From Desulfobacteraceae bacterium (GTDB lineage: Bacteria > Desulfobacterota > Desulfobacteria > Desulfobacterales > Desulfosalsimonadaceae), in NCBI GenBank assembly GCA_011390465.1, contig JAABSH010000012.1, positions 1 through 64,000 on the forward strand: DNA of 64,000 nucleotides. The letters are read 5' to 3'. Shown piece after piece: positions 35,721 through 58,687 of the stretch. Every line of letters starts with the position of its first letter. Position 1 is the first letter of the stretch. The translations under genes were made by a program, and so were the position numbers. A model generated the notes under the pieces. The model had not been told where the DNA came from. It did not search any database and saw only the letters and a program-made list of their open reading frames with translations.

Positions 35721-35721
35721 T

Positions 35722-36951
35722 ATGCCGGTATTTTCCTATAAAGCCAGTGACGCGTCTGGCAACGTGGTAACAGGGGCCCTTGAGGCGGCCGAAGAAAAGG
35801 ATGCCGCAGTTAAACTCCAGGCCATGGATTACATTCCTATCCGGATTCAGGCTGATAGCGGCAGAAGCAGGGGGGTATCGCTGAACCGCTCGATTGATAT
35901 TTCCGCCCTGTTCCAGCGGGTGACAACAAAAGACGTGATGATGTTCACCCTGGATTTGCACGCGCTTCTGCATGCGGGCCTGCCTGTGGACAAGGCGCTG
36001 TCGCTTTTGATCAACGTGGCGGAAAAAGCAAAATTTAAAACGGTCATTGCCGGTATATTGAAAAATGTGCAGTCCGGGAATTCTCTTTCCGAGGCCCTGG
36101 CAAAATACCCGAAAATTTTTCCCACGCTTTATATTAATATGGTGAAAGCCGGGGAAACCGGCGGGGTGCTGCCCGCCGTGCTGGAGCGGCTGGGCAGTTT
36201 TCTGGAAAATTCACAGGACTTGAAAGATTATATCACGTCTGCCATGGTGTATCCCCTGTTTCTGGTGTTTGTGGGCGGGATTTCCATTGTGGTCATGCTG
36301 GCTTTTGTGGTGCCCCGGTTTGCCATTATTTTTGAGGATATGGGGCAGGCAATGCCCGCGTCGACCCAGATGCTGCTGGGAATCAGCCACGGGATCAGGA
36401 ATTACTGGTGGCTGATTTTACTGGTAATCGGCGGCATCGTTTATATTGTGAAAAGATATGTGCGCACGCCGGATGGCCGGTTGCGGACGGATCGCGCCAA
36501 GGTTGCCGCGCCGGTGGTAGGGAATCTGGTAAAATCCGTGGAAGCGGCCCGTTTTACCCGGACCCTGGGCACGCTGATGAACAGCGGGGTGCCCATTCTC
36601 CAGGCCCTGCGGCTGGTACAGGAAATTATAACCAACCACATGATCGCAAATGAATTGGAAAAGGTCTATCACCGGGTCAAGGAAGGGGACAATCTGTCCG
36701 GCCCCCTTGCGCAGGCGGATGTGTTCCCGCCCCTGGCCGTGCAGATGATTTCCGTGGGAGAGGAAACCGGCAAGCTGGACCAGATGCTCTTGCGGGTGGC
36801 GGAAAATTATGAAAAAACCGTGCGCAACATGATCAAGCGGTTTGTCAATCTCCTGGAGCCGGTAATGATTCTGGCCATGGGGCTGATGGTGGGCTTTATC
36901 GTGATTTCCATGCTCATGGCCGTGTTCAGCATGAACGAGGTTCCGTTTTGA
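35722..36951 (+). CDS. gspF: type II secretion inner membrane protein GspF
   Basis: MPVFSYKASDASGNVVTGALEA; GspF/PilC organization; directly after gspE. Confidence 0.95.
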   Translation: MPVFSYKASDASGNVVTGALEAAEEKDAAVKLQAMDYIPIRIQADSGRSRGVSLNRSIDISALFQRVTTKDVMMFTLDLHALLHAGLPVDKALSLLINVAEKAKFKTVIAGILKNVQSGNSLSEALAKYPKIFPTLYINMVKAGETGGVLPAVLERLGSFLENSQDLKDYITSAMVYPLFLVFVGGISIVVMLAFVVPRFAIIFEDMGQAMPASTQMLLGISHGIRNYWWLILLVIGGIVYIVKRYVRTPDGRLRTDRAKVAAPVVGNLVKSVEAARFTRTLGTLMNSGVPILQALRLVQEIITNHMIANELEKVYHRVKEGDNLSGPLAQADVFPPLAVQMISVGEETGKLDQMLLRVAENYEKTVRNMIKRFVNLLEPVMILAMGLMVGFIVISMLMAVFSMNEVPF

Positions 36952-36984
36952 TGGCTGCGGAAAACAGCTGTGCTGGGCAATTCC

Positions 36985-37015
36985 AATCGAAATCAAAATC
37001 GTTATCGAAATCTGA
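36985..37015. repeat. hexanucleotide-period array (ATCNNN)n between gspF and gspG
   Basis: atcgaaatcaaaatcgttatcgaaatctga, period 6. Confidence 0.7.
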
Positions 37016-37072
37016 TTTTTTACGGTTTTGTATATTGAAACTATATATAAGGATAAAGGAGTATCAGGGATA

Positions 37073-37519
37073 ATGCATCGTCATCTCAGAGACAGAGACA
37101 GAGACAGAGACAGAGGGTTTACTTTAATTGAGTTGTTAATCGTAATGATTATTCTGGGGCTCCTGGCAGCCCTGGTGGGACCGCGGATGTTCGGCAAGGT
37201 GGGAAAATCCCAGCAGAAAGCGGCCAAATCCCAGATATCGCTTTTTGAAACCGCCATTGATACTTACCGGCTGGATGTGGGACGCTTCCCAACGGCCCAG
37301 CAAGGACTGTCCGCGCTCCGGGAAAAGCCTGATGACGCGGATAACTGGGACGGGCCGTACTTGTCCAAGGAATTGCCCTTGGATCCCTGGGGAGAGCCTT
37401 ATGTATATAAATATCCGTCCGAGCACAGCGATTATGAAATCATTTCCTATGGCGCGGACAAACAGCCCGGCGGGGACGGGGATGATGCGGATATATACAG
37501 CTGGAAAAGCCTTGAGTGA
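37073..37519 (+). CDS. gspG: type II secretion major pseudopilin GspG
   Basis: RGFTLIELLIVMIILGLLAALVGPRMFG prepilin motif, FETAIDTYRLDVGRFPTAQQGL, DPWGEPYVYKYP. Confidence 0.95.
   Translation: MHRHLRDRDRDRDRGFTLIELLIVMIILGLLAALVGPRMFGKVGKSQQKAAKSQISLFETAIDTYRLDVGRFPTAQQGLSALREKPDDADNWDGPYLSKELPLDPWGEPYVYKYPSEHSDYEIISYGADKQPGGDGDDADIYSWKSLE
37087..37115 (+). repeat. CAGAGA hexanucleotide tandem repeat inside gspG leader
   Basis: Four CAGAGA-register units plus partial, encoding (RD)n just before the GFTLIE cleavage site. Confidence 0.9.
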
Positions 37520-38022
37520 TGAAAAACGGGTTTACCCTGATTGAACTGCTGGTGGTGCTGGTGATTATATCGCTGGTGTCGGCTTTTGTGGCACCGCGGT
37601 TTATTTCGCCCATGGGTAATCTGCAGCTGAAAACCGCGTCCAAAAAAATTGCCGGTGCCATGCGGTACAGCCGGAGTCTGGCGGTGGCTGAAAAACAGGC
37701 CCGCGTATGTGTGTTTGATTTTGACATTCAGCAATTGTCCATATTTGCGGGCATCATGCCGGACAACGGAGATGCGGCGGCAGAAGGTTCAGGCACACCT
37801 CCGGAAATCCGATATGATCTGCCGGAAAAGGTTTTTTTAAAAAAAGCCATGACCGGAGATGCAGTGTTTGAAAACGGAAAATTCCGGGTGATTTTTTTTG
37901 CCAATGGCAGCGCCAGCGGCGGTGAGATTGTGCTTACCAATGACCGGGACCGGTCCGCGACGATTCGCATTGATTTTATCACCGGCATGGTGTCTCTGCC
38001 GGCAGCGGAAGCGGCCGGGTGA
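37519..38022 (+). CDS. gspH: type II secretion minor pseudopilin GspH
   Basis: MKNGFTLIELLVVLVIISLVSAFVAPRF; position in operon. Confidence 0.85.
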   Translation: MKNGFTLIELLVVLVIISLVSAFVAPRFISPMGNLQLKTASKKIAGAMRYSRSLAVAEKQARVCVFDFDIQQLSIFAGIMPDNGDAAAEGSGTPPEIRYDLPEKVFLKKAMTGDAVFENGKFRVIFFANGSASGGEIVLTNDRDRSATIRIDFITGMVSLPAAEAAG

Positions 38023-38230
38023 AAAGCGCGGGATCAGGATAAAGGTATTACCAAGGGAGACTGAATTTTTTAATGCACGGTTTTTGATTCTCTGATCATA
38101 GACTGCAGGCTGAAGGAATTTAGGCTGAAGAACCAAAGGATTTGATTCTTTTTTATTCCTTCCCTTGAGTCTTTAGCCTATTGATAAATATTTGTATTTT
38201 AAAATTTTCCCGGCCTCCAACACAAATTTT

Positions 38231-38287
38231 CCCGCAGAGACGCAGAGTCGCTGAGATTTTACTCTGCGAGCTCTGCGTCTCTGCGGG
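38231..38287. repeat. palindromic CGCAGAGACGCAGAG-family repeat between gspH and gspI
   Basis: Perfect 17-bp arms CCCGCAGAGACGCAGAG / CTCTGCGTCTCTGCGGG. Confidence 0.9.
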
Positions 38288-38359
38288 GAATAATGGTTTT
38301 TGAACCGAATTGAGTTAAAAGCGTTCCATTGCGGTCATTTTAGGTAAGTAGCAGTTTTT

Positions 38360-38833
38360 ATGAGATTTTTTTTATTTCAGCCGAAAAATTTAATTTCCCC
38401 GGAAAAAGGGTTTACCCTCATCGAAACCCTGGTCGCCATTATGATTCTGAGCATTTCCCTGGTGGTGATCATGCAGCTTTTTTCCGGTGGGCTCAAGGCC
38501 GGCAAGATCTCAGATGATTATTTACATGGCATATTTCATGCAAGAGAGAAGATGGAAGAATTGCTGATATCCGATGATCTGCTTCCCGGCAATTACAGCG
38601 GCACATTTGAAGACGGCTATCAGTGGGCGGCAGCGGTTGATATTGTTGAAAATCCGGTGGAAACCGAAGAACAGGCGGAAATTTCAGAAAAAATGCCGGT
38701 GGTGCTTCTGCAGATTGATTTGGCGATCACCTGGACGACCGGCCTCCGGGAAAAGCATTACCGGCTTTCCACCACACAGCTCATTGACAAAAAATTGGTT
38801 TCAGAAGATCCCCAGGACAACAGAAATTCATGA
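38360..38833 (+). CDS. gspI: type II secretion minor pseudopilin GspI
   Basis: EKGFTLIETLVAIMILSISLVVIMQLFSGGLKAG. Confidence 0.85.
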   Translation: MRFFLFQPKNLISPEKGFTLIETLVAIMILSISLVVIMQLFSGGLKAGKISDDYLHGIFHAREKMEELLISDDLLPGNYSGTFEDGYQWAAAVDIVENPVETEEQAEISEKMPVVLLQIDLAITWTTGLREKHYRLSTTQLIDKKLVSEDPQDNRNS

Positions 38834-39489
38834 GACCGGCCCGGAACAGCAGGGGATTTACCCTGATTGAGCTGTTGATCTCCATGACCATTACGGGAAT
38901 GATTCTGGTGGTCATCATGGGGGCTTTTCGTATTGGCATCCGGGCATGGGAAAAAGGAGAACAGGACATTGAACAGTCCCAGCGTCAGCAGATCGTGCTT
39001 TCCCTGCTGAAACGCCAGCTGGCATCGGCCTGCCTGCATCCTGTTCCCATAGAAGACGACGATCCGTTTGTTTTTTCCGGGGACGGTCAAACTGTGGATT
39101 TTATTTCCAGCATGCCGGTGGTGCCGGGGCCGGATACCGGCCGGGTGCGGGCCACCTACCGGGTGCGCCGGGAGCGGAGTCCGGAGCGTGGTAGCGATGT
39201 ATATGTCCTGGAAATCGCGGAACGGGGATTTCTCTCCGGCGGCCTTGGTCAGCCAATCGACGAATTGGATGAGGACCGGATTTACACGCTGATACCCCAT
39301 GCGCACGCGGTAAAATTTGAGTTTTTGACGCCGGCTTCAGAAGAATCGCCCGGCGAGTGGCAGCCGGAATGGGAAAACAATCCGGCCACGGGGCTGCCGG
39401 CAGCCGTAAAGTGTGTTCTTCAGATGGATGAAAGCGCTGCACCGGTTACCATGATTGCGCGGATTTTTTCCCGGGAGGATGTATTATAG
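38830..39489 (+). CDS. gspJ: type II secretion minor pseudopilin GspJ
   Basis: SRGFTLIELLISMTITGMILVVIMGAFRIGIRAWEKGE. Confidence 0.87.
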   Translation: MRPARNSRGFTLIELLISMTITGMILVVIMGAFRIGIRAWEKGEQDIEQSQRQQIVLSLLKRQLASACLHPVPIEDDDPFVFSGDGQTVDFISSMPVVPGPDTGRVRATYRVRRERSPERGSDVYVLEIAERGFLSGGLGQPIDELDEDRIYTLIPHAHAVKFEFLTPASEESPGEWQPEWENNPATGLPAAVKCVLQMDESAAPVTMIARIFSREDVL

Positions 39490-39492
39490 CTG

Positions 39493-40566
39493 ATGATGTT
39501 GTGCGGCAACAAAAAAGGCGTGGTCCTGCTGATGGTGCTGTGGGTATTGATGCTGCTGACGGTGATTGTCGGTGAATTCTGTTACGCCATGCGGACCCGG
39601 GTGAATATTACCCGGAATTTCAAGGAATCCACGGAAGCTTATTACATTGCCGTGGCCGGTCTGAACAAGGCCATTGAGCAGATGATCCGGCAGGAGATCG
39701 TTCCGCCCAAACGGGTTTCGGTCGACCCCAAAACCGGTGAACCGCTTGAGGGAGTGGAAGAAACGCCGGTCTGGCGCACCGGCACGGACCTGCCGCCCAT
39801 GGATTTCGGCGGCGGCACCTTTAGGGTCCGTATGCGCAATGAAAGCGGCCGGGTGAATATCAATCAGGCCAATGACGTCATGCTGAAAACCCTTTTGGAA
39901 GGATTTGATCTGGACCCGTCAGAAAAGAGCGTGATCGTGGATTCGATCCAGGACTGGCGGGATACGGACCGGAATCACCGGTTAAACGGGGCGGAAGATG
40001 ATTATTATCAGTCTCTTGACACTCCCTATGCGTGCAAGGACGCTCCCTTTGACACCCCGGAGGAACTGTTTTTTGTCCGGGGGATAACCCGTGAAATCTA
40101 CAACCGCTTGAAAGACCGGGTGACGGTGTTCCCCAAAGAATCAACATTGGCGGAAAAAACCCTGGGTAGCCGGTCCCGGCAAAAGAATAAGAAAAAAGGG
40201 TTTAATTTTGATCAGTTGAATGTAAATTCGCTGTCTGCTGCCATGTGGGCGGCGCTTCCCGGGATGACCGAAGATCTGGCCGCAGATATTATGGCGTTTC
40301 GGGCGGAGCAGGATTTTCAATCTTTGACTGAAGTCCAGGATATTATCGGCATGGAAGTTTTCCGGGGGTTTGCCCGGCATCTGACCCTGGAAACCATTCC
40401 CTATTACACCATCAGTGTGGCAGGGAATGTTGCCGGCACCCTGACCATGGACGGGGTCACTGCGGTGGTCCGGTTGGATCGGCAGCATCAGGAAAATTTT
40501 CAGATTGTGGAGTGGATTGACGCAGCGGAACACCGGCCGGGGCAAATTCATGGGCCGGCGTTATGA
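39493..40566 (+). CDS. gspK: type II secretion minor pseudopilin GspK
   Basis: KKGVVLLMVLWVLMLLTVIVGEF; GRVNINQAND; C-terminal helix-hairpin-helix region. Confidence 0.9.
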   Translation: MMLCGNKKGVVLLMVLWVLMLLTVIVGEFCYAMRTRVNITRNFKESTEAYYIAVAGLNKAIEQMIRQEIVPPKRVSVDPKTGEPLEGVEETPVWRTGTDLPPMDFGGGTFRVRMRNESGRVNINQANDVMLKTLLEGFDLDPSEKSVIVDSIQDWRDTDRNHRLNGAEDDYYQSLDTPYACKDAPFDTPEELFFVRGITREIYNRLKDRVTVFPKESTLAEKTLGSRSRQKNKKKGFNFDQLNVNSLSAAMWAALPGMTEDLAADIMAFRAEQDFQSLTEVQDIIGMEVFRGFARHLTLETIPYYTISVAGNVAGTLTMDGVTAVVRLDRQHQENFQIVEWIDAAEHRPGQIHGPAL

Positions 40567-40632
40567 TTTTATGCCGGTTTGCGGATTTCAGTGCATTATT
40601 AAACACAGCCAGCGGTTGAGAGGATAAAACTT

Positions 40633-42027
40633 TTGCTTTTTAATTCAAGCATCGGCATCGATATAAATGACCATCAGGTGAGCATTGTTTACCTGAAGGG
40701 GTCTTTTAAGGGCATGCATCTGGCGGCAGAGACGGATTTTCATCCGGCGCGCGGCATGTCACAACCTGATACGTCCAAAAAGGATATTCAGAAAGAAACC
40801 ATAGATTTTATAAATAATTTTGTCAAAACCGAAAAAATAGCCGCCGCAGATATGTTTATGGGGATTTCCGGAGATCAGGTGATGCTGCGGGAAATTGAAT
40901 TTCCCCTGGCAGTCCGGGAAAATCTCAGGACGACCCTGAGTTATGAAATCGAAAAGTATTTTCCCCTGCCGGCGGATGATGTTTATTTTGATTTTCATAT
41001 CATTTCAGACGACAAGGAAACTGAAAAACTCCGGCTGCTGCTTGCAGCGGTAAAAAAAGATGTTTTTGCGCCTTATCTGGAAATTGCGGAACAGATTGAA
41101 AACGGGATTTCCGGAATCAGCATCATGCCGGCGGCCCTGGTTAATTATTTTTTAAATGGCTGGCCAAAGCTTGAAAAACCGGTGTTGCTGTTTTACTGGA
41201 CAGGGTCGCGCTGTGAAATCGCGGTCGTCAAAAACAAGGCCCTGATTTACGGGAAATCAATGTCTGTGGCCGATATTCCCGTTGCGCCAGGTGAATGGAC
41301 CAAACAACAGGCCTTGAGCCTTCAGGAAATTTTCTGCGCAGATGAAACTGCCGGCATTGCGGTGTACGGTCTTCCCGCATCGGAACGGCCTGTTGAAGCT
41401 CTGCTGCCGGAATTAGAAATGATGTCTCCGGACCCGGCGACGCTTCAGAACGACCAGTTTATTCCTGCCTACGGGCTGGCCCTGAACGGCATCGGCGATG
41501 TTCCGGTGGAAATTAACCTGCTGCCGCCGGTGCTGCGCAAAAAACCGGATAAAACCGGTTTTTACACGATGATGGGGCTGATGGTTTTGGTGGTGCTGGT
41601 CTGCGGCATCTGGGCGGGCAGCCATATCGTGCGGCAACGGCAGGCACTGGCGCTGCTGGATGCGGACCTGGCCCGGTTGCGGTCCAGTGCGTCGGAAATC
41701 CAGCAGATTCAGACTGAAACCCTTGAAATGCAAAAAAATCTTGATTATATCCGTTCCCTGCGGCCGGGTAACGCTTTTGCCGTGGAACTTCTTAACGAGG
41801 TCAGTTCGATTCTGCCGCTGGATGCATGGCTTACGGATTTTAAACTATCCGGCAACAAGATCAGCATTTATGGGGTGGCGGCGTCGGCCACGGAACTTAT
41901 CGCACTGCTGGAGGCATCGCCTTATCTTGCCAGGGCTGAATTTATTTCCACTATCCGCAAAGACCGGGACGGCCGGGAAGTGTTTCGCATCGGATGTGTC
42001 GTACAGAATGGAGGGCATAAAAAATGA
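40633..42027 (+). CDS. gspL: type II secretion GspL (PilM-like actin-fold + PilN-like)
   Basis: SIGIDINDHQVSIVYLKGSF, LSYEIEKYFPLPADDVYFDF; single TM then LNEVSSILPLDAWLTDF. Confidence 0.85.
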   Translation: MLFNSSIGIDINDHQVSIVYLKGSFKGMHLAAETDFHPARGMSQPDTSKKDIQKETIDFINNFVKTEKIAAADMFMGISGDQVMLREIEFPLAVRENLRTTLSYEIEKYFPLPADDVYFDFHIISDDKETEKLRLLLAAVKKDVFAPYLEIAEQIENGISGISIMPAALVNYFLNGWPKLEKPVLLFYWTGSRCEIAVVKNKALIYGKSMSVADIPVAPGEWTKQQALSLQEIFCADETAGIAVYGLPASERPVEALLPELEMMSPDPATLQNDQFIPAYGLALNGIGDVPVEINLLPPVLRKKPDKTGFYTMMGLMVLVVLVCGIWAGSHIVRQRQALALLDADLARLRSSASEIQQIQTETLEMQKNLDYIRSLRPGNAFAVELLNEVSSILPLDAWLTDFKLSGNKISIYGVAASATELIALLEASPYLARAEFISTIRKDRDGREVFRIGCVVQNGGHKK

Positions 42028-42605
42028 TGTTTGACAATGTGGAAATGACCCGGGAACGAAAATTTATTCTGATTGCAGGGGCGGTTTTGCTGGTACTGGG
42101 CGTGATTTACCGGTTCTGGCCGGCCATTGCATCTACGGTGTCGGTTGCCGATGAAATTGCCCTGAAAACGGAACATGTGGAAAAGTACCAACGGATTGCG
42201 GCGCGCAAGGATCAGGTGGTAAAAGAAAACGCGGCTGTCCGTAAACAGTTCCGGCAAATGGAAAATCGCCTGCTCTCCGGATCCACCCCGAGTCTGGCTG
42301 CCGTGGAAATTCAGAACACCCTGAATACCATTGCTGAAAATGTTAACGTAAAGTTTTCCACCATGCGGGTGATGAAGCCGCCGGAAGATGAAATCGCCGA
42401 TTATATGCGGGTGCCGGTGCAGTTTTCCGTGGATCTGGATATTGTTCAGTTTAAGGATATGATTTACCAGATTGAAACCAGTTCCCGGCTGCTGCTGGTG
42501 GTGAGTGAGCTGGATATCCGCCAGCTGCGGTCCCGGGACGGATATCGCATCCGGTCTGTGGTCACGGTGGAGGGGGTAATGAAAGCCCCGGCGGTTGCCG
42601 GATAA
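42024..42605 (+). CDS. gspM: type II secretion GspM-like
   Basis: N-terminal TM, small periplasmic domain, position between gspL and gspN/C-like. Confidence 0.75.
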   Translation: MMFDNVEMTRERKFILIAGAVLLVLGVIYRFWPAIASTVSVADEIALKTEHVEKYQRIAARKDQVVKENAAVRKQFRQMENRLLSGSTPSLAAVEIQNTLNTIAENVNVKFSTMRVMKPPEDEIADYMRVPVQFSVDLDIVQFKDMIYQIETSSRLLLVVSELDIRQLRSRDGYRIRSVVTVEGVMKAPAVAG

Positions 42606-42632
42606 AGCGCTGCGGCGGGGAAAGGACAAAAA

Positions 42633-43367
42633 ATGTTTTTAAATTCAAAAATCTGGCTGGTCAACGGGCTGCTGCTTCTTGCCCTGGGGATTGGCTGTGT
42701 AAAGATATGGGACGTGTGGCAGACACCATCAACGGTTTTGGCCGGCAGTAGTCCGGCCGCCAATGAAAAAACCGGCCGGGCGGTAAAATCAACGCCGGAG
42801 AAGCGTCTGGCCATTGACGCCCGTTACGCGGAGATTGTGGACCAGAATCTCTTTTCACCGGATCGTGCCCCGGCGCCGCCGCCACCGCCGGAATCGGTGG
42901 AAGCGACACCGGAGCCTGAAGAAGTTAAAGCGGAAGTTCGGATTTCCGGTGAAAAAGTAGAACTCTATGGGGTTGTTATGCTGGATGAGTATAAAAAAGC
43001 CCTGACCAATGACCCGGCCGACCGGACGGTCCAGACCCGTTGGGTCAGTGAAGGCGATAAAATCGGAAATCTGGTGGTCCGGGAAATCTCCCAGGATACT
43101 GTTTTGCTCTCAGATGCGGAAAAGACCTACCGGGTGTTGTTGTATGATCCGAAAAAAATTGCAAAGTCCGGTTCGAAAACACCACACAGATCTCCGGAAA
43201 GCGGCAGTCCGCAAATTGTCAGTGCAGGAAGCGCTCCCCGGCAGGCCACATCCGGATCGCCAGCTGCAAAGACAGATAATGTTTCAAAACCAGCGGCATC
43301 AAATGATCAGGATGAATACGAAACGATTGTAACCCCGTTCGGTACAATTAAAAGAAAGAAGAGATGA
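42633..43367 (+). CDS. type II secretion GspN/GspC-like (XpsN-type) protein
   Basis: N-terminal TM; YAEIVDQNLFSPDR and VELYGVVMLDEYKKALTNDP HR-domain-like region; precedes gspD. Confidence 0.75.
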   Translation: MFLNSKIWLVNGLLLLALGIGCVKIWDVWQTPSTVLAGSSPAANEKTGRAVKSTPEKRLAIDARYAEIVDQNLFSPDRAPAPPPPPESVEATPEPEEVKAEVRISGEKVELYGVVMLDEYKKALTNDPADRTVQTRWVSEGDKIGNLVVREISQDTVLLSDAEKTYRVLLYDPKKIAKSGSKTPHRSPESGSPQIVSAGSAPRQATSGSPAAKTDNVSKPAASNDQDEYETIVTPFGTIKRKKR

Positions 43368-45394
43368 TAGTGAAAAAAAATAAAATCAAGCAATTACTGG
43401 TTGGTGTGGGATGTGCGCTCATGGTGACGGCCCTCAGTGTTGGCGGGTTTTTGCAGCCGGCATTTGCGGCGCCCGAGGAAGTTGGGGAATCAGGTGATGC
43501 CGCTGGCCAGGCAGATGCGTCAGTGCTGAGCGAAAACGGAAAGCTCGTGCTGAATTTTGACAATGCCGATTTGGTGGAGGTCATCCGGACCCTGGCGGAT
43601 CTTCTGGGGATCAATTACATGGTGGATACCGGGGTGGGCGGCAAGGTGACCATTCATACAGCCGGTGAATTGACCCGGGAGGATCTCTTTCCTGTTTTTT
43701 ACCAGGTATTGGAGATCAACGGGATGACAGCGGTAAAAGACAAGGATATTTATAAAATAGTTCCCCTGAAAGACGCCTCCCGGCGACCGGTTATCATGTC
43801 CCGGATCGGGGCCAAAGAAAGCATCCCCCCTGATGAACGGGTGATTATCCAGGTGATTCCCCTGGCCTCTCTGGCGGCGCCTGAAATGACCAAGCTGCTC
43901 ACGCCTTTTCTTTCAGCGGAAGGAACAATCGTATCTCAGGACAGCCGCAACCTTCTGGTGGTGGTGGACCGGGCCGAAAATATCGACAAGATTCTGCGGC
44001 TGGTGCGGGTGTTTGACACGGATGTGTTTGAAAAAGTGGATTATCGTTTTTATCCCCTGTCCTACAGCGATGTGGAAGAGATGGTAAAAATCATCAATGA
44101 CTTTTTTGTGCCGTTTGGGGATGCCGTGAAAACCACCACCAGCCTGATTCCTATCATTCGGTTGAATACGCTTCTGGTGGTCAGCAGCAATGAAAAAGTG
44201 TTCGATATGGTGACGGCTTTTTTAGATGATTATGATGTCCCGAGCCTGAACACGGAACCCAGTGTTTATGTTTATCCCCTTGTGAACGGCAGAGCCGAAG
44301 ATATCGCCGATATTCTGGGACAGGTGTTTTCCGGAAAAAACGCCGATGATAAAAATCAGTGGAATTCCCAGGTTTCGGCCGCCACCCGAAATCCTCTGGG
44401 AAAAGCGGCAAAAGCCGAAAAATCCGCGGCTGCTCCGGCTTCAGCCGAATCTGCGCCGATGGCAGCAGGAGCAGACAGCTCCATCGGCTCTGGCACCTTG
44501 CGGGGTGAAATCAATATTACGGAAGATAAAAGCAGAAATGCCCTTATTATCGAGGCAACGCCGGGGGATTATCAGATAGTAAAAAAATTACTGCAAAAAT
44601 TGGATGTTATGCCCCGCCAGGTGCTTATTGAAGTGACATTTGCGGAAATTACCCTGGATGAATCCACTGCCATGGGCGTGGAATGGGCGTATAATAAGGG
44701 CGATGCCAATTTAAGCACCAGCCTCATGAAAGCCACCATGGGAGATTCCGGGCTGAATTTCACCATTGGCAATCCAGACCGGTGGACCGCGGCCCTGTCC
44801 GCCCTGGCCACGGAAAACAAGGTCAATATTTTATCCAATCCTTCGGTTATGGCATCCAACAGCCTGCCGGCCAATATTGATATTTCCCAGGAAATTCCCA
44901 TTGCCAGTTCCCAGTATCAGTACACCACCGGAGATGATGCGCTTCTGGAAACCGATATTCAATACCGGGACACCGGAATCATGCTGTCGGTAACGCCCAA
45001 TATCAATGAAAACGGGCTGGTGACCATGGAAATCGATCAGGAAATCAGCGAGCAGGCATCCAATGTGTCTGTGGGGGGAAAAGATTACCCCTCATTTTTT
45101 AAACGCAGCACCGCCACAACCCTCACGGTGCAAAGCGGCCAGACCATTGCCATCGGCGGCCTGATTCGGGAGACCGTATCTGACGGGTCCTCCGGTACTC
45201 CCTGGTTTGTCAGAATCCCGATCATCGGTTTTTTGTTCGGCCAGACATCGGATTCCATTTCAAAAACAGAACTGGTAATTTTAATTTCACCTTATGTCAT
45301 TGCCACTCCGGATGACGTGGACGTGGTAACCCGGGAGTTCCAGGCCAGAATTACGGGCCTGTCAACGGACGTGAAAGAATCGGGCCAGCGGTAA
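43364..45394 (+). CDS. gspD: type II secretion secretin GspD
   Basis: N-domains LVEVIRTLADLLGINYMVD; secretin core RQVLIEVTFAEITLDE, NPSVMASNSLPANI, TTLTVQSGQTIAIGGLI. Confidence 0.96.
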   Translation: MIVKKNKIKQLLVGVGCALMVTALSVGGFLQPAFAAPEEVGESGDAAGQADASVLSENGKLVLNFDNADLVEVIRTLADLLGINYMVDTGVGGKVTIHTAGELTREDLFPVFYQVLEINGMTAVKDKDIYKIVPLKDASRRPVIMSRIGAKESIPPDERVIIQVIPLASLAAPEMTKLLTPFLSAEGTIVSQDSRNLLVVVDRAENIDKILRLVRVFDTDVFEKVDYRFYPLSYSDVEEMVKIINDFFVPFGDAVKTTTSLIPIIRLNTLLVVSSNEKVFDMVTAFLDDYDVPSLNTEPSVYVYPLVNGRAEDIADILGQVFSGKNADDKNQWNSQVSAATRNPLGKAAKAEKSAAAPASAESAPMAAGADSSIGSGTLRGEINITEDKSRNALIIEATPGDYQIVKKLLQKLDVMPRQVLIEVTFAEITLDESTAMGVEWAYNKGDANLSTSLMKATMGDSGLNFTIGNPDRWTAALSALATENKVNILSNPSVMASNSLPANIDISQEIPIASSQYQYTTGDDALLETDIQYRDTGIMLSVTPNINENGLVTMEIDQEISEQASNVSVGGKDYPSFFKRSTATTLTVQSGQTIAIGGLIRETVSDGSSGTPWFVRIPIIGFLFGQTSDSISKTELVILISPYVIATPDDVDVVTREFQARITGLSTDVKESGQR

Positions 45395-47837: not shown

Positions 47838-47858
47838 GGCAGGCCCACCGTGCCTGCC
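47838..47858. repeat. intercistronic hairpin between kinase and regulator
   Basis: GGCAGGC-ccaccgt-GCCTGCC. Confidence 0.6.
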
Positions 47859-47931
47859 TGAAAAACAGGATGAAGTTACGGTGCTGTAAAGCACATATTG
47901 GTTTGATACAGATGACGTGGGTGAGTCAGTC

Positions 47932-49391: not shown

Positions 49392-51482
49392 ATGTTTTTT
49401 GAAGCCAATTATTTGCAAGGTACTGTAAGAGTGTGTCATCAGGCTTTTAAAATATTGTCAGTCTCTGTGGTCATTGCCTGTTTTCTGTGGCCAAAAGCAA
49501 CTCTTGCGTCTGAGATGGAAGACACCATGCTCATGTTTGTGGGCGAGGAACTGGATGTGCTGTCTATTGCCTCCCGCCGGGAGGAAAGCGCGCGCCAGGC
49601 GCCGGCCGTGGCAAGCGTCATCACCCGGGACATGATGGAAACCCGGGGAATGTACACTGTCAGTCAGGCCCTTGCCCAGATGCCCGGGTTTTACCTGGCG
49701 CAAAAAGAATGGGGCTCCCGGCCGTATTTGCGGGGGATTCCGGATTCTGTCCTGTTTTTGTATGATACTGTTCCCATGCAATCGGATACTTCCAAGTCCG
49801 TGCATCCCCTGGATGATGAGCTGTCTCTTGCGCCGGTCAAGCGCATTGAAATTGTCCGGGGGCCCGGGTCCGTACTCTGGGGCGCGGACGCATTTGCCGG
49901 TATTGTCAATATTGTGCCCATGACCGGAAAGGACCTGAACGGCGTAGAAACCGGTATCTCCTATGGTGATCCGGGTGACTTTAAGGGGTATCACATCAAT
50001 GCCGGGCATGACGGCGGCGCATGGGATGGATTTATTTCCCTGATCGGGCGGGAAGGCGCGGCTGATGACCGGACGGCCAATGTTGTGCGTTTTCAGGGAA
50101 ATCAACAGCAAGATCCCACCGGCATACCCGTACCGCCGGATGAGCGGTATGGATACGAACGGGCTGACCGGCCCCAATTTATCGAACTGGTAGGCAACTT
50201 CAATGTCCGGGACTGGCTCACCGTGTCCGGCCGGTATTCGGACTATACCCGGCCCTATTCCATGGCGGACCGGGACCAGGAACGGGTGTGGCTGGAAAAG
50301 CGCAGCAATCCCATGAACTATCTCAAGCTGGAAGGCAAAAAAAATGTGGGCGTGAATTCCGCCCTGCGGTTTACGGGGTATTATTCAGCCATTGATTCAT
50401 CTTATAAAGTCATCGACATGGGCTTTGAGCCCAGTGAATACACAACCTATGGGGAGCTGATTTATGATCATGATTTCCTGTCCGGCAAAGGCCTGCTCAC
50501 CGCGGGCACGGCCTGGCGAAATAAAAGTGTGTCGGACGCGCCCATCTGGGACAGTTATCTGCCGGACTTTCTGGGTCCTGAAAATACCACGTTTCTGCCG
50601 GGCATCACACAAGAAGATTACCGGACCGAGCTGTGGTCCTTTTTTGGCCAGTATTCCCATAAAATCGGCAAATTGGATGTGTCCGCGGGCCTCCGTCATG
50701 ACGCCCACGATGCATATGAGAACAGTTTGAGTTATAATCTGGGGGTTGTCTGGTCTCCGGCCGCTGCCTGGACATTAAAGGCGCTGTATGGCACCGGATA
50801 CCGCACGCCTTTTGCCAGTCAGCTCCTGGAAGCCGAAAAGCCGGATCTTGAAGAAATCAACACGGCAAATCTGGAAGTGTCCTGGCAGCCGGACCATTGC
50901 TGGGGATTGACCCTTGGCGGATTTGTCAATCATATCTCGGATCATATCATGGAAGACCCCTATGCCGGGCTGTCGGATTCCAATCACCAGAAGATTTACG
51001 GCGTGGAAATGGAAGGCCGGATTCAACCAGTCGATTCGCTGGAACTTGCCGCCAATATCACGGTGATGAACAATTCCGGGCCGGATGAGGCTTATTTTTA
51101 CAATGATTATACCTTCCTGCGGCCGGACGGCACCCTGGAGAAGCATTATGTCGAGATCAATTATCCCTTTGACACCGGGCCGGACACTCTGCTGAACTTT
51201 ACGGCTGAATGGACGCCCATGGACCGGATTTCCCTGTTCTGCCGGACCGGTTATGTGTCGTCTCAGGATGTTATCTGTTCCACCTGCGACACCTGTGACA
51301 AGGTTTCCGGAGAGTGGATTGCGGATGCCGCCGCAACCGTCCGGGATATCCTGTTGCCCGGTCTGGACCTGCGTCTGTATATGAAAAATATCACAGACAG
51401 GGAATACAATCTTCCCGGCACCAACAGCACCATTGAAGGAGAACCGTTTTCCCTGCAGTTGATGCTTATCAAAAAGTGGTAA
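49392..51482 (+). CDS. TonB-dependent outer membrane receptor
   Basis: Plug domain (ESARQAPAVASVITRDMMETRGMYTVSQALAQMPGFYL, IEIVRGPGSVLWGADAFAGIVNIV); beta-barrel; C-terminal ...LQLMLIKKW. Confidence 0.93.
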   Translation: MFFEANYLQGTVRVCHQAFKILSVSVVIACFLWPKATLASEMEDTMLMFVGEELDVLSIASRREESARQAPAVASVITRDMMETRGMYTVSQALAQMPGFYLAQKEWGSRPYLRGIPDSVLFLYDTVPMQSDTSKSVHPLDDELSLAPVKRIEIVRGPGSVLWGADAFAGIVNIVPMTGKDLNGVETGISYGDPGDFKGYHINAGHDGGAWDGFISLIGREGAADDRTANVVRFQGNQQQDPTGIPVPPDERYGYERADRPQFIELVGNFNVRDWLTVSGRYSDYTRPYSMADRDQERVWLEKRSNPMNYLKLEGKKNVGVNSALRFTGYYSAIDSSYKVIDMGFEPSEYTTYGELIYDHDFLSGKGLLTAGTAWRNKSVSDAPIWDSYLPDFLGPENTTFLPGITQEDYRTELWSFFGQYSHKIGKLDVSAGLRHDAHDAYENSLSYNLGVVWSPAAAWTLKALYGTGYRTPFASQLLEAEKPDLEEINTANLEVSWQPDHCWGLTLGGFVNHISDHIMEDPYAGLSDSNHQKIYGVEMEGRIQPVDSLELAANITVMNNSGPDEAYFYNDYTFLRPDGTLEKHYVEINYPFDTGPDTLLNFTAEWTPMDRISLFCRTGYVSSQDVICSTCDTCDKVSGEWIADAAATVRDILLPGLDLRLYMKNITDREYNLPGTNSTIEGEPFSLQLMLIKKW

Positions 51483-51580
51483 TTTTATTTTATTGGCCAA
51501 ACCTGACCATGTCTGGCTAAATATAGCCAGCTTCTCAACCTGGGTGTGTGCCTGAAAAATGCAGCAAAAAAAACTATTAC

Positions 51581-51644
51581 ACCACAGAGGACACCGAGAA
51601 CACGGAGAAAAAAATCCCTCTGTGATCTCTGGATCCTCTGTGGT
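51581..51644. repeat. palindromic repeat, ACCACAGAG family (second copy)
   Basis: ACCACAGAGGA...TCCTCTGTGGT 11-bp arms. Confidence 0.8.
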
Positions 51645-51758
51645 TTAAAATCATTCTGCATAATTTTTTTCAAATTTTCAGATCTTTTCCGTATATTTTC
51701 AGGTGAAATGCACTGGGCCAGTGATTATGGCACCATGATTGCAAGGTATAAAAACAAT

Positions 51759-53303
51759 ATGAAAACACGATTCCGACATATTGTTTTAATTATAACCATT
51801 GCGGTGATCACCCTGGCATTTCCGGCAGTCACTGTTGCGGACGATTCAGCCGCAGAGGAAACAGCAACGTATGAAACAGCAGTTCAGGATGCCCAGCCGG
51901 GGATGGATGAAAATGAGACCGCGCTTTTCACCCTCATCAACGCGGCCCGGCGGGATCCGTTGGGCATGGCTGAATCTCTGGGGATGAATCGCGATGAAGT
52001 TTTAAGCAGCTTGCCGGAATTATGCGATATTCTGATCAACGGGCTTCCTGAACTCTGTTTTAACAAGGCGCTTTACCGGTCAGCGGGTGCGCATAACCGG
52101 GATATGCTGGATCAAAATTATTACGCGTATGCATCTATTGACGGAAAAACACCAGAGCAGCGGATGATGGAAGCCGGATATGTGCCGGCTGTTGCCGGAG
52201 AAGTCCTTGGAATGATGTTTTTCAATAATTTTATCGATCCGAATTTGGCGGTTTCCCGGATATTTGAAAACATCTTCAAAGATGAGCTGTCCCCTGAACG
52301 GACAGCCCCGCGTCGCATTCTTAACCCGGATTTCAGTGATATCGGCGTGAGTATCGGCGGTGGTATCTACCAGATGAATAATTTCACAAGTAATGTTTAT
52401 CTGGGGGTTTTTGATTTCGGCGCTTCGGTAAAACCTCATGAAATTCAGCTTCTGGCGCTGATCAATCAATTACGAAGCAAACCTGGAGCAGTGACCCGGA
52501 ATTTTGGCATAGAAGTGGAGGAAATACTTGATTTGTTTCCTGAATACACACAGTTTTATTCGGAAGGCCTTCCTCCGCTGACTTTTAACGGTTTGCTGTA
52601 TACTGCCGCAGATGTTCAGATTTCGGATATGCTGGAAAACAGCTATTGGGGGCATATTTCACCTGATGGCACCACTCCTCTCATGCGGATTCGTGCTCAG
52701 GGGTATGCACCGACGTGGGTAGCAGAATCAAAATACCGGCTTTCCACATGCAATAGAGTTATTTCTCCAACCAATACAATTCATGTTATTTTCAAAAATA
52801 TGTTTTTAAATGCATTCAAGAGCGGAACGTATCGGGACCGCAATATGCTGTCCGAAAAAGCCAGGGAAGCTGGATTTCGCATTGTGGCCACTGAATGGGA
52901 ATTAATTGAAAGTCTGTGCGGTAATCAAATGCATATAACACTTTGTGATTATGGTGCTTCAAACGTGTTTGAGGGTTTTAATGGTGAAAATAAAATTATA
53001 CCAGCTTTAACCGGTGTCGTGTATGCAGACGGAAATGACAACGGACTTTATGATGCAGGAGAAGGCGCACAAAATTTTGCGGTAAAAATAGAAAGCCAGG
53101 AAACCAATGAACAAATAAAAATCGTTTTCAGCGGGGAAACAGGTTTTTATTCAGCGTATCTTTATCCGGGTAAATATGAGGTATCTGTGAGTTCAACGAG
53201 AACAGGCAAAGAAATAAACAGCCAGCAGGTTGCTGTTGAAGTGGAAAATACCTGTAACACATGGCTTCCGTTTTTAGTAAATTCAATCCCTTCTGATTTT
53301 TAG
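51759..53303 (+). CDS. secreted protein with two tandem CAP/SCP-like domains and C-terminal SdrD-B-like domain
   Basis: Signal peptide MKTRFRHIVLIITIAVITLAFPAVTVA; two copies of LxLIN..R..P..........L....F..; VYADGNDNGLYDAGEGAQNFAVKIES; ORF-track start 51546 lies in repeat DNA. Confidence 0.8.
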   Translation: MKTRFRHIVLIITIAVITLAFPAVTVADDSAAEETATYETAVQDAQPGMDENETALFTLINAARRDPLGMAESLGMNRDEVLSSLPELCDILINGLPELCFNKALYRSAGAHNRDMLDQNYYAYASIDGKTPEQRMMEAGYVPAVAGEVLGMMFFNNFIDPNLAVSRIFENIFKDELSPERTAPRRILNPDFSDIGVSIGGGIYQMNNFTSNVYLGVFDFGASVKPHEIQLLALINQLRSKPGAVTRNFGIEVEEILDLFPEYTQFYSEGLPPLTFNGLLYTAADVQISDMLENSYWGHISPDGTTPLMRIRAQGYAPTWVAESKYRLSTCNRVISPTNTIHVIFKNMFLNAFKSGTYRDRNMLSEKAREAGFRIVATEWELIESLCGNQMHITLCDYGASNVFEGFNGENKIIPALTGVVYADGNDNGLYDAGEGAQNFAVKIESQETNEQIKIVFSGETGFYSAYLYPGKYEVSVSSTRTGKEINSQQVAVEVENTCNTWLPFLVNSIPSDF

Positions 53304-53554: not shown

Positions 53555-54781
53555 ATGAAAAAAGTAATTACTGTGTTAATGGCATTGACCATGGTATTTG
53601 GTATTGCCGGAATCGTGTCTGCTGAGGCAATTGATGCGACGAACTGTGCCGGTGATGGTGGCAATCTTATCGTTCCGGGATGCGGCTTTCAACCAACAGA
53701 ACAAGGGCCGCCCATGGATTGTGGACCTTTTGATTTTGAAGCAGACCGATGCACCGGCAAACAGGAAAATCGTGCCCTTTTCCCGGTTTGTGAGTGCGTT
53801 GAAGAAGGTTATTATGACGAATTATTGACAGATACGGAATATGGGATTCGCATGACCATTCTGGTGGACAAACATGACGGCCAGGGTCCCGTGGAAGGTG
53901 ACAATTTTGTTTACTGGGCTGGAGAAGGCGATGCCGGCGGTGATGGCATAGCAGATCTTAACGATGGTATTGATGTGATGATTTTTGACCGGGAAGGTCA
54001 GGCTTGTGAAACAGACTCTTTAGGTAATTACACAGGCGCACCGCTTGCTTCTCCTGTTGAACCTAACGCCTTTGGGGCTTCCTTTGATGATTTTGATTTC
54101 AGACTGGCCAATGGCAATGCCGGTACACCGGATGCCTGTGCGAAACCGAATGATGATTGCGGAAACTGCGCTGATTTGTGGCGGGTGGTTGAACTTGAAC
54201 TTAAGGACACGGTTGAAGGGTTTTTGACCGAATCCGGCGACAGCAGCAACTGGGTCATTGACATTCCGGATATGTGGGCTGATTTACCGAACGCCCAGGC
54301 AGGTTGGACCGTGTACGTTGAAGTTTGCCTGAATCAGAGAGGCGATGCTGGTCAGGGCAGAGAAAATATGTGTGTTGACTGCAACTGTTGCTTCATGCTT
54401 GAAGTGGGGACCCTGTGCTGTGACTCAGCTCCTTCAAGCTGCGAAGATATTCTGACCTTCCCCTACTTTCCGAGCAAAGATAATTTCTGGCTGGGAATGG
54501 CCATTACCAACACGGGCAGCGAGGAAGGCACGGCTACGATCACTATTTATGAAACTAATGGTGAAACAGCAACTATTACAGAAACAGTTGCCGCAAATTC
54601 AACAAAAATTATAACGGATTTCGCTGCCAACACAAGCGGTGGTGCTGTTCAGGCCTATGCGAAAGCGGTTTGTGAGTTCCCGGCATCCGGATTTGCCATG
54701 TTTGGCCAGGTGGGTGCAGGAGATGAATCGCTGGGCTACCTTGCTGAAAGATGCGGTACCTGCTCTTCATGTGATCACTAA
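53555..54781 (+). CDS. Cys-rich secreted protein of unknown function
   Basis: Strong SD GGAGG; signal peptide MKKVITVLMALTMVFGIAGIVSAEA; many Cys in clusters (CVDCNCCF, LCCDS, RCGTCSSCDH). Confidence 0.85.
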   Translation: MKKVITVLMALTMVFGIAGIVSAEAIDATNCAGDGGNLIVPGCGFQPTEQGPPMDCGPFDFEADRCTGKQENRALFPVCECVEEGYYDELLTDTEYGIRMTILVDKHDGQGPVEGDNFVYWAGEGDAGGDGIADLNDGIDVMIFDREGQACETDSLGNYTGAPLASPVEPNAFGASFDDFDFRLANGNAGTPDACAKPNDDCGNCADLWRVVELELKDTVEGFLTESGDSSNWVIDIPDMWADLPNAQAGWTVYVEVCLNQRGDAGQGRENMCVDCNCCFMLEVGTLCCDSAPSSCEDILTFPYFPSKDNFWLGMAITNTGSEEGTATITIYETNGETATITETVAANSTKIITDFAANTSGGAVQAYAKAVCEFPASGFAMFGQVGAGDESLGYLAERCGTCSSCDH

Positions 54782-54832: not shown

Positions 54833-54869
54833 CGGGGAAAGGGGGCAACTCCTTTCCCCGTTGTTTTTT
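54833..54869 (+). terminator. intrinsic terminator after Cys-rich secreted gene
   Basis: CGGGGAAAGG / CCTTTCCCCG stem followed by TTGTTTTTT. Confidence 0.85.
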
Positions 54870-54899
54870 ATGGTTGGCACCTTCAATTGGGGGCAAATA

Positions 54900-55562
54900 T
54901 TGAAAACCTTATACCTGTTTATTATTATTTGCGGATTGGTTGTGGGAAGCGTATGGCCCTGCAGTGTTTCTGCCCACCGCCCATATGCGCCGGAATTACC
55001 CATCGCGGTTAAGACCGAATTGATAGTCACCGATACCCATCACCACACTCAATTCTTCCGTACCATGATTCGCGTCACGCAAAAAACCGAAACCAATTTT
55101 AAAATCGGATTTTTCCCCTCGGACCAGGACGATGCTGCAGGCATGTTGGATTTCGATTTTTTAGGGACGATTTCCTGGAGTGGTGTCGGTCAGACAGCGC
55201 CCACTTTCCATGCGAAAAATCTTTTTATTGTCTCTGGTGTAACCCTGCCCATTGATGTGCTTCCTGTCCAAATGATTATCAACGCAGGTACACCGCTTGA
55301 ATATGAATTTACACAGATTGCCGGTGGGCGGAAGTTTTTCCGCAGAATTCAGATGACCGCAAGTCCTGTTAGTCGTGACGAAGCCCGTCAGGTCGGGTGG
55401 ATTCTTTGTGACGACTGCTTTTGTGATGCTGTTGAGCTTCAAATGATCGTGGTGACGGATTTGCAGACTGGCGACCTGATCGTTAAGCAGCTTTGGGCTG
55501 CTGATGGTTGCTGGTGGCTTTACGAGCAGACCCCTTTGCGCCGTTCCTGGCGCGTTCAATAA
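54900..55562 (+). CDS. secreted hypothetical protein
   Basis: Signal peptide (TTG start: MKTLYLFIIICGLVVGSVWPCSVSA); ATG 54870 is an alternative start. Confidence 0.7.
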   Translation: MKTLYLFIIICGLVVGSVWPCSVSAHRPYAPELPIAVKTELIVTDTHHHTQFFRTMIRVTQKTETNFKIGFFPSDQDDAAGMLDFDFLGTISWSGVGQTAPTFHAKNLFIVSGVTLPIDVLPVQMIINAGTPLEYEFTQIAGGRKFFRRIQMTASPVSRDEARQVGWILCDDCFCDAVELQMIVVTDLQTGDLIVKQLWAADGCWWLYEQTPLRRSWRVQ

Positions 55563-55597: not shown

Positions 55598-58093
55598 GTG
55601 TTTATGCGTTTTCTATTTCTTTTCCTGTTTATTGTGGGGCAGCTTTTTTTTGCACAGCATAATTTTTGTTCAGCCCAACAATTTGTCAGCGCTGACCCCG
55701 TGCCCTGGTCCGGCCACTGGTGGCCTTTTAGTCAAGGAAGTATTGGTACCGGTATTGGATACCGCGGTCATCCGTCCCCATTGGAAAAATATTTGCTTTT
55801 AACGACCGGGACAGAATCCGGCCCGGCACTCGACTGGTATCTGGAATATTATTATGATCCATTTGCTGATGACTGGTGGGGTCTGTGCCCGGCCTATGCC
55901 CGGTCCGCGGTAAAAGAAACATATTCTATATTACCGTCTGTTCATGACAATATCGTTTTTCGGGTGGGAGACAAAAAAGGACTGCTCGCTCTCTGCCACG
56001 ATTCCAGGGGCGGTGTCATCTATACCACAGGCAATCCGGTGAATTTCCATTTTTGGCTTCTGGATTATATTCATGACCAGAAAAAAGCCTTTGCCGCGGA
56101 TTTGATATTAGGAGAGGAAGTCTGGTATTTTCCGGTGTATGCCTATGAAATGACATCCGTTAGAAGCGGCCTTACGGAAAATGTTAATGTTGCTATTTTG
56201 TATGCCGCCCACATGGGACCGGATTATATGGGAACCCAGGCGATGGAGGCAGGGCCGTATACTTACAGCCTTGATCTGGATGCTCAGGGTAATATTGTCG
56301 GTGGCAGATGGACCGGGGACAGTGTTTTTAACCATCCTGAAACACTTTCTTATCCTGAATCCCCCGGATCGGAAAACCCTTACCTGAGCGCACACGATTG
56401 TACCAAAATCAAACAAATTGCGCGGGCCAAAGATGATGAACTGGAATTGGCCGGGGAATCAATTGCCAGACTTCTGCCGGGCGCTTATCATCTGGTATTG
56501 CTGGACGAGGATGTTTACAGCATTGAGGGTGAGGCGGGCGATATTGTAAATCTTGATATTTTTCGGGAAAATGGATCCAATCAGGCAATGGATGTTGTCC
56601 TTGCGGATTCAGATGAGGTATTGATCTGGGAACACCTTTTTGAGAAAAGTGATGATCCTGAAGTTTTTGAATTTACGCTTGCCAACCCGCCTTATACACT
56701 GAGGGTAACTCAGGAAAATTATGTGACGGATCCTAATATTTATTGTCTGACAATGGATTATCGCGGCGCCTATGACTGTATTATCCCCTATATCCCCAAA
56801 AACGGCCCCTGGTCCGGTTTTGCCGTGACCAACGCTTCGGTGCAAGAAACAGCTGAAGTGATGCTGGTGACACAGGATATGAATGGGATTCCTCTCCAGA
56901 CCGTGTTTGGTCCTGATGTTCTTAAACCGGGCAAAAAGAATTTGTTTCACCTTTCAAGTCTACCAATACGGGAACATGAATTTTCCGGGACCGGCGGACT
57001 GAAACTGATTTCCAATCAACCTGTCAGCATGGTGAATCTGTTTGCGGATGACCAGGGGCCCATGGCCGGGTTTAACGTTGCCGGACTCACCGGAAACCGG
57101 ATTATCATACCGGATATTTATGACAATGACCCTTGGGATCCGCAGTATATGACCGGTGCGGTGGTCAATGAAACATCCGGAAATATGGAAACGACCTGGA
57201 ATTTTTATTCGGAACAGGGCGATTTAATTGATTCGTTTTCTGAAAATCTGTCGCCTTACAAAAAAATTTATATTGAGCCTGGAAGTGCTCCTTTTTTTAA
57301 CGTCCCGGATGGCGGCTGGATGGAGGTTCTTGCCTCTGATGTTTCGGCAGCACTTAGCGGATACTTTTATATCAGCAGCCAGAAAAATCAGCAAAAGATT
57401 CTTGAAACCAGCCATGCACTGCTGGTTTCAGATGAAACACTGTACATCCAGCATGTCACACTCCCTTCCGGCCCATGGCAGACCACATTGACCCTTATTA
57501 ATCCGAATCCTTATAAAAACAGGGTGGTTGTGCATCCTTTAAGAACAGAGGGGATCAAGCCGGCGGATATGATTATGCTTTTGAATCCCTATGAAAAGCG
57601 GTTGATCTCTCTTAGTTTGGACTTTGGAACGGATATCAATCGTTCTGTTCTGGAAATTTCCGGCAGTGCCGCGCTGTGCGGGCATGTTTCTTATGAGGGC
57701 AAAAGGGGGGATGCAGCTTTTTTGGAGATGCTTACAGATGATGATTTTAAGCCTGAACTCGTTTTGCCCCATACAGCATCCAACACGGATCGCTGGTGGA
57801 CCGGGGTCGGGGTTTGCAATCCCAATTTCTATCCCGTGACCGCGTTGGTGATACCCTCTGACAAAAGCGGCGATCCCCTTATGTCAGAGGAGACAGAACT
57901 GGTCCTTGCGCCTGGTGGTTATGAAATTTTTACAATTAAACAGATGTTTGGACCCATGGCTCAGGATATTGCGTTTTTGAAAATTTTTACGGACCCGCTG
58001 GATTCAGGAAATATTGGCGGATTTTATCTTTATGGAAACAGGGAAACGCAGGATCTTAAGGCACAGAGCCAGGTGACCGGCGGGAATATGTAA
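55598..58093 (+). CDS. secreted transglutaminase, Phytophthora-elicitor type (PF16683-like), with C-terminal repeat domains
   Basis: Signal peptide; WSGHWWPFSQGS, SPLEKY, WWGLCPAYA (putative catalytic Cys), VNFHFWLLDYI, VWYFPVYAYE, YTYSLDLDAQGNIVGGRW; about four C-terminal W-x-G-x-x-x-x-N-like repeats. Confidence 0.75.
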   Translation: MFMRFLFLFLFIVGQLFFAQHNFCSAQQFVSADPVPWSGHWWPFSQGSIGTGIGYRGHPSPLEKYLLLTTGTESGPALDWYLEYYYDPFADDWWGLCPAYARSAVKETYSILPSVHDNIVFRVGDKKGLLALCHDSRGGVIYTTGNPVNFHFWLLDYIHDQKKAFAADLILGEEVWYFPVYAYEMTSVRSGLTENVNVAILYAAHMGPDYMGTQAMEAGPYTYSLDLDAQGNIVGGRWTGDSVFNHPETLSYPESPGSENPYLSAHDCTKIKQIARAKDDELELAGESIARLLPGAYHLVLLDEDVYSIEGEAGDIVNLDIFRENGSNQAMDVVLADSDEVLIWEHLFEKSDDPEVFEFTLANPPYTLRVTQENYVTDPNIYCLTMDYRGAYDCIIPYIPKNGPWSGFAVTNASVQETAEVMLVTQDMNGIPLQTVFGPDVLKPGKKNLFHLSSLPIREHEFSGTGGLKLISNQPVSMVNLFADDQGPMAGFNVAGLTGNRIIIPDIYDNDPWDPQYMTGAVVNETSGNMETTWNFYSEQGDLIDSFSENLSPYKKIYIEPGSAPFFNVPDGGWMEVLASDVSAALSGYFYISSQKNQQKILETSHALLVSDETLYIQHVTLPSGPWQTTLTLINPNPYKNRVVVHPLRTEGIKPADMIMLLNPYEKRLISLSLDFGTDINRSVLEISGSAALCGHVSYEGKRGDAAFLEMLTDDDFKPELVLPHTASNTDRWWTGVGVCNPNFYPVTALVIPSDKSGDPLMSEETELVLAPGGYEIFTIKQMFGPMAQDIAFLKIFTDPLDSGNIGGFYLYGNRETQDLKAQSQVTGGNM

Positions 58094-58127: not shown

Positions 58128-58565
58128 ATGAATCAGGTTGTTTCAAAATCGAATTTGTTTGCATTATTCATTGCGGTATTATTCATGACAGGTGGCTGTC
58201 AATCCTTTTTGTTTCAGCCAATTTCCGCGGAAGAGGCGATTGAAAATCGGGTCGTGGAAATGATGAGTGCGCGTGTGAATGGCGATTGGGGCAGAGTATA
58301 TAAATATTTGTGCCCGGAATACAAAAATGCCGTTTCCAAAGAAAGTTTTATGGCCAAGCCAAGAAATATGTTATTCCGCAATTTTAATGTGGAGTCTGTC
58401 GAAATGGATTCTTCGGCTGAAAAAGCAACTGTCATTGTTTCGTATGACATGACGGTGATGAGTTATGAGGTTCCGGACCAGCGCGAGACTCAAAAATGGA
58501 TAAGAAAAGGTGGAAACTGGTACTTTGTGATAAAGAATGTGTCACCTTTTGGGGGTGTTGATTAA
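58128..58565 (+). CDS. small lipoprotein
   Basis: Signal peptide with lipobox FMTGGC; EEAIENRVVEMMSARVNGDWGRVYKYLCPEYK suggests an NTF2-like fold. Confidence 0.75.
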   Translation: MNQVVSKSNLFALFIAVLFMTGGCQSFLFQPISAEEAIENRVVEMMSARVNGDWGRVYKYLCPEYKNAVSKESFMAKPRNMLFRNFNVESVEMDSSAEKATVIVSYDMTVMSYEVPDQRETQKWIRKGGNWYFVIKNVSPFGGVD

Positions 58566-58623
58566 AATCAGCACAGTAGTAAGACGGGAGACCAAGCAGT
58601 CCTTATTGCAACTGGTTTTTAGG

Positions 58624-58661
58624 AAATAAAAAGAGCCGCCGAATGGCGGCTCTTTTTATTT
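58624..58661. terminator. strong bidirectional intrinsic terminator
   Basis: Perfect 17-bp arms AAATAAAAAGAGCCGCC / GGCGGCTCTTTTTATTT, loop GAAT, between convergent genes. Confidence 0.95.
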
Positions 58662-58687
58662 CTGGTGTGTTTAATGTTATAAAGAAA

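Follow-up and report, generated by a model that had tools for sequence, protein, structure and literature searches.

The window, that is, the whole 64,000-nucleotide stretch of DNA analysed here, carries on its forward strand a gene for a secreted protein of the TGase_elicitor family (TGase), which is preceded by a type II secretion system (T2SS) operon and by genes for a TonB-dependent receptor and three further secreted proteins, and followed by a gene for a small lipoprotein-like protein (Table 1). The T2SS genes end about 10 kb upstream of the TGase gene, so that the first-pass annotation, which had placed a complete T2SS a few kb away, was loosely worded but right as to vicinity. As for completeness, E, F, G, H, K, L, M, and D are present together with two pseudopilin-like ORFs, and GspC has no Pfam match in the operon, its usual place being occupied by a 244-aa ORF; the system is likely complete. 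Between the T2SS and the TonB-dependent receptor, positions 45436-49287 hold genes for an ABC-type binding protein, a histidine kinase, and a sigma-54 response regulator, which are retained in relatives and may control the TGase locus. Beyond the cluster, a gene on the reverse strand (58688-61138), convergent to it and retained in two relatives, encodes a PKD-repeat protein with a rhodanese domain.

Table 1. Features of the TGase locus, in coordinates of the window.
Feature	Position	Strand	Remarks
Type II secretion operon	34203..45394	+	GspE, F, G, H, two pseudopilin-like ORFs, K, L/PilM-PilN-like, M, ORF in the C position, D
TonB-dependent receptor	49392..51482	+	PF00593, E 2e-25; conserved upstream neighbour
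Secreted protein with two CAP-domain stretches	51546..53303	+	PF00188, E 1.4e-9; conserved neighbour
Cys-rich secreted protein	53555..54781	+	408 aa; C-terminal domain resembles last TGase repeat
Intrinsic-terminator-like hairpin	54833..54860	+	Gap between Cys-rich and small secreted genes; 12-pair stem and T run
Small secreted protein, proposed dedicated TGase partner	54861..55562	+	233 aa by listed TTG start, true start unsure
TGase_elicitor-family protein	55604..58093	+	829 aa; ATG start, full reading frame
PF16683 TGase_elicitor domain	55682..56383	+	Residues 27-260; catalytic-type domain
WSGHWWP motif	55706-55726	+	
SPLEKY motif	55775-55792	+	
DDWWGLCPAYA motif	55868-55900	+	
Cys95, predicted nucleophile (WWGLCPAYA)	55886..55888	+	Invariant in 20/20 homologues
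Pro96	55889..55891	+	At position of GP42 catalytic "CH" His
VNFHFWLLDYI motif	56039-56071	+	
His149 (FH), candidate alternative catalytic or structural His	56048..56050	+	In 19/20 homologues and GP42
EVWYFPVYAYE motif	56117-56149	+	
Pep-13-like segment VWYFPVYAYEMTS	56120..56158	+	Residues 173-185
YTYSLDLDAQGNIVGGRW motif	56258-56311	+	
Small lipoprotein-like protein	58128..58565	+	Conserved neighbour, orientation varies
Strong terminator-like hairpin	58622..58663	+	3' of lipoprotein gene; 19-pair stem

The TGase gene had earlier been delimited as 55598-56800; its reading frame is real, but it starts at the ATG at 55604 and ends at 58093, the former interval covering about the first half only. 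The six motifs quoted at that time are all present in the plus-strand ORF and in the same order, VWYFPVYAYE lying exactly at 56120-56149. By eye, the hydrophobic N-terminus MRFLFLFLFIVGQLFFAQHNFCSAQQ reads as a signal peptide of about residues 1-25, which bears out the proposed secretion signal. Downstream of the PF16683 domain, the C-terminal region (residues 376-829) seems by eye to consist of about four beta-sandwich-like repeats, weakly backed by self-comparison. The last of these repeats and the C-terminal domain of the Cys-rich neighbour are similar to each other (hhalign 89%, E 2.3e-6). Full-length homologues have a common layout and about 800-880 aa. A PPC domain at residues 301-369 fell below the cut-off (E 0.12) and is not claimed.

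The first-pass annotation had named PF16683 as the family to search for, and the whole protein matches this Pfam HMM with E 8.4e-15 and 54.9 bits against a gathering cut-off of 25 bits; with the TGase domain alone as the query, the E-value is 4.3e-17. Each of 20 bacterial homologues tested individually matches it as well. Among solved structures, the crystal chain of Phytophthora GP42 (3tw5) is the sole significant match, with E 6.5e-9 by phmmer and E 1.1e-24 with a profile of the 20 homologues. On these sequence grounds, membership of the GP42 family is established.

Across species, the arrangement is conserved: the T2SS is followed by the genes for the TonB receptor, the CAP protein, the Cys-rich and the small secreted proteins, TGase, and the lipoprotein, an order that is kept in the same genus and, in part, in the families f10, f90, f63, f71, and f38. 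TGase lies near T2SS genes in the window, in four genomes of its own family (G004, G006, G008, and G012), in G355 of f90, and in f71 members, T2SS genes being close to TGase in f1, f71, and f90, and both are on the same contig in G044 of f10. The GspD type of the window is present in all 8 TGase-bearing relatives, and the same T2SS type also occurs in genomes with no detected TGase. The genes for TGase and the small secreted protein are separated in f71 and f38 by one for a multihaem cytochrome c554-type protein (L041:6704-7921, also L040, L043, L046, and L037), whose N-terminus looks phosphoesterase-like by eye.

The Cys-rich secreted protein is a candidate TGase substrate or surface protein; it resembles Slr4 of the S-layer with E 0.005, which fails the cut-off, and an S-layer identity is not claimed. 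Elsewhere in the same genome (G000:C38:43733-45739, within L101), a 3869-aa open frame contains two domains like this protein (E 5.8e-55 and 2.0e-51) and might encode a giant protein of the cell surface that is one more substrate for crosslinking. A terminator-like hairpin is found between the Cys-rich and small secreted genes at the equivalent place in 7/7 loci examined and suggests that TGase is expressed below the level of the Cys-rich protein. The hairpin behind the lipoprotein gene possibly marks the end of the transcription unit.

The small secreted protein just upstream of TGase has no Pfam match, the other members of its family have no convincing one, and no convincing PDB match was obtained for the family (E 0.02). 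Genome-wide, 8 of 60 relatives carry the family, and these are exactly the genomes with the TGase N-terminal domain. In a sample of 395 genomes of the phylum, 15 carry TGase; 12 of these also have the small secreted family, and outside the 15 there is a single marginal match (E 5.7e-4). Of the three TGase genomes with no partner match, two have TGase on short contigs and the third, G092, has a divergent copy immediately 5' of TGase (E 6e-5). The chance figures for this co-occurrence, 4e-10 and 2e-20, ignore relatedness, and the partner profile was seeded from TGase neighbours; the weight, therefore, rests on the near absence of copies elsewhere. A dedicated TGase partner is proposed here, which could act as a chaperone, an inhibitor, or a substrate.

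By PF16683 search, TGase is detected in 6/60 relatives and 13/395 phylum genomes, and by more sensitive profiles in 8/60 relatives, with the N-terminal domain covered, and 15/395 phylum genomes; all of these counts are lower bounds, as contigs of the same-genus drafts G007, G001, and G002, which gave no match, end before the expected place, which renders absences of TGase uncertain. Two of the relatives are named Desulfobacterales MAGs, a sulfate-reducing group to which the source bacterium is related, and the TGase tree follows the bacterial families mentioned above. No TGase relatives were found in the plasmids, phages, and viral contigs searched, so a mobile-element origin finds no support.

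Regarding the active site, Cys95 in the W-x-G-x-C block stands opposite the Ser of ISHAW in 3tw5 as deposited, which fits the crystallized protein being a Cys-to-Ser mutant. All 20 homologues keep C95, D123, W174, P177, and D207, while H132 is found in 18 of them and H149 and D166 in 19 each. According to PMC10318531, GP42 is an enzyme without His at the canonical place, in which the base is the His directly after the Cys, in a "CH" motif. This His is absent from the window TGase, and since Pro96 stands at its position, another base may serve. The residue after the Cys is H in 7, P in 6, N in 4, D in 2, and F in 1 of the 20 homologues, with Pro in all six rows of the alignment from the same family, and the non-His states are spread over several branches of the tree with the remaining site kept. 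The "CH" His belongs to the GP42 mechanism as described and is no requirement of the PF16683 HMM, which all 20 homologues pass. Either the TGase relatives would use another base, or the published His assignment might not hold family-wide. Of the papain-like Cys-His site expected at first, the nucleophile is kept, but the GP42 His beside it is not. An AlphaFold model built from three sequences (pLDDT 35.2, pTM 0.30) is too poor to reveal an alternative Cys-His site; Cys95 lies at a helix start in this poor model only (pLDDT 35).

The missing His could also be understood if TGase were a papain-like protease, amidase, or glutamine deamidase acting on extracellular polymers or foreign proteins, with no crosslinking function, and the GP42 core indeed belongs to a papain-like superfamily with many hydrolases (PMC10318531). 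However, the nearest solved relative is a transglutaminase (3tw5), and the gene goes together with a constant set of secreted proteins that belong to the cell itself, so that a hydrolase of this kind, although worth serious consideration, is a minority possibility. The domain may also have lost its activity, leaving TGase as a surface protein with a structural role or with weak catalysis, as the Pro of the same-family rows and the long C-terminal beta region could suggest. Dead enzymes seldom keep such invariant site residues as the five listed above, accompanied by three nearly invariant ones, and the His has been replaced in several separate branches while the remaining site was kept; loss of activity is, thus, rather improbable.

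The Pep-13-like segment VWYFPVYAYEMTS aligns in register with VWNQPVRGFKVYE of GP42, its counterpart in the 3tw5 chain being VWNQPVRGFKVY, and V-W-x-x-P-V is kept as the first-pass annotation had noticed. Nevertheless, the identity to Pep-13 amounts to 4/13 only (V, W, P, and V), and W174 and P177 are invariant in all 20 bacterial homologues, whatever their lineage. The resemblance to Pep-13 is, therefore, a trait of the fold and family from which an elicitor function does not follow, and the motif loses its value as a sign of an elicitor. That TGase is a secreted effector directed against plants or other eukaryotes and equipped with a functional Pep-13 elicitor is highly improbable. The retained V-W-x-x-P-V and the secretion-system neighbourhood might speak for it, but the identities are few, W and P are invariant in every lineage, and the cluster is made up of surface- or matrix-type proteins with nothing recognisably host-directed.

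The preferred reading, to which we give a probability of roughly 0.55, is that TGase is a transglutaminase of the GP42/PF16683 family, exported by Sec and then by the T2SS, that is held at the surface and crosslinks the products of its own cluster, with the small secreted protein as its dedicated partner. After Sec export, passage through the T2SS would follow, a dependence suggested by gene neighbourhood only. The enzyme would be papain-like, with Cys95 as the nucleophile and the Pep-13-like W-x-x-P strand as a fixed part of the fold. The C-terminal beta-domain region would hold TGase on the cell surface or matrix, and Gln-Lys isopeptide bonds would be formed in the cluster's products, the substrate and anchoring roles being deduced from a single remote domain match. 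The most likely role, with route, activity, and substrates inferred, is that TGase depends on the T2SS and crosslinks proteins on the surface of its own cell; it would probably make that surface tougher and have no action on plants. More tentatively, the locus might constitute a T2SS-linked surface-crosslinking module, in which a GP42-type transglutaminase works with a base other than the "CH" His, the small secreted protein is an obligate partner representing a new family, and the substrates are surface proteins encoded alongside. Of the original interpretation, the family, the secretion signal, the T2SS vicinity, and the Pep-13 alignment stand, and crosslinking is plausible; the Pep-13-like stretch is better taken as a mark of the fold, and the expected Cys-His site lacks the His that GP42 has beside the Cys.

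The invariance of Trp and Pro suggests that plants recognise Pep-13 because those positions are hard to change, and as the residue that follows the catalytic Cys varies, the GP42 mechanism as published can be tested across the family. The 2011 description of the GP42 family, as cited in PMC4915311, limited it to oomycetes and marine Vibrio, whereas here a GP42-type gene belongs to a secretion locus that is conserved among several families of a different phylum; this spread and the family-following tree bear on the source of the oomycete gene.

With GP42 of Phytophthora sojae (3tw5; PF16683), the window TGase has in common the aligned W-x-G-x-C, D-x-K, F-H, A-D, and E-V-W-x-x-P blocks, and also a Y-x-L-x-L-D...G-G-x-W block. 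It differs in the Pro that follows the Cys where GP42 has His, in its C-terminal repeats, which lie outside the coverage of 3tw5, and in its position in a bacterial T2SS locus with partner genes. The GP42 homologues of marine Vibrio, described in PMC4915311 as bacterial members of the family and known here by this literature description only, share the family with the window TGase, but the present TGases come from the window's own phylum, the named members being Desulfobacterales. With the microbial transglutaminases of Streptomyces and Bacillus, the window TGase would share the papain-like superfamily and the use of non-standard catalytic residues (PMC10318531). The sequence families differ, and the profile of 20 homologues gave no PDB match to those enzymes.
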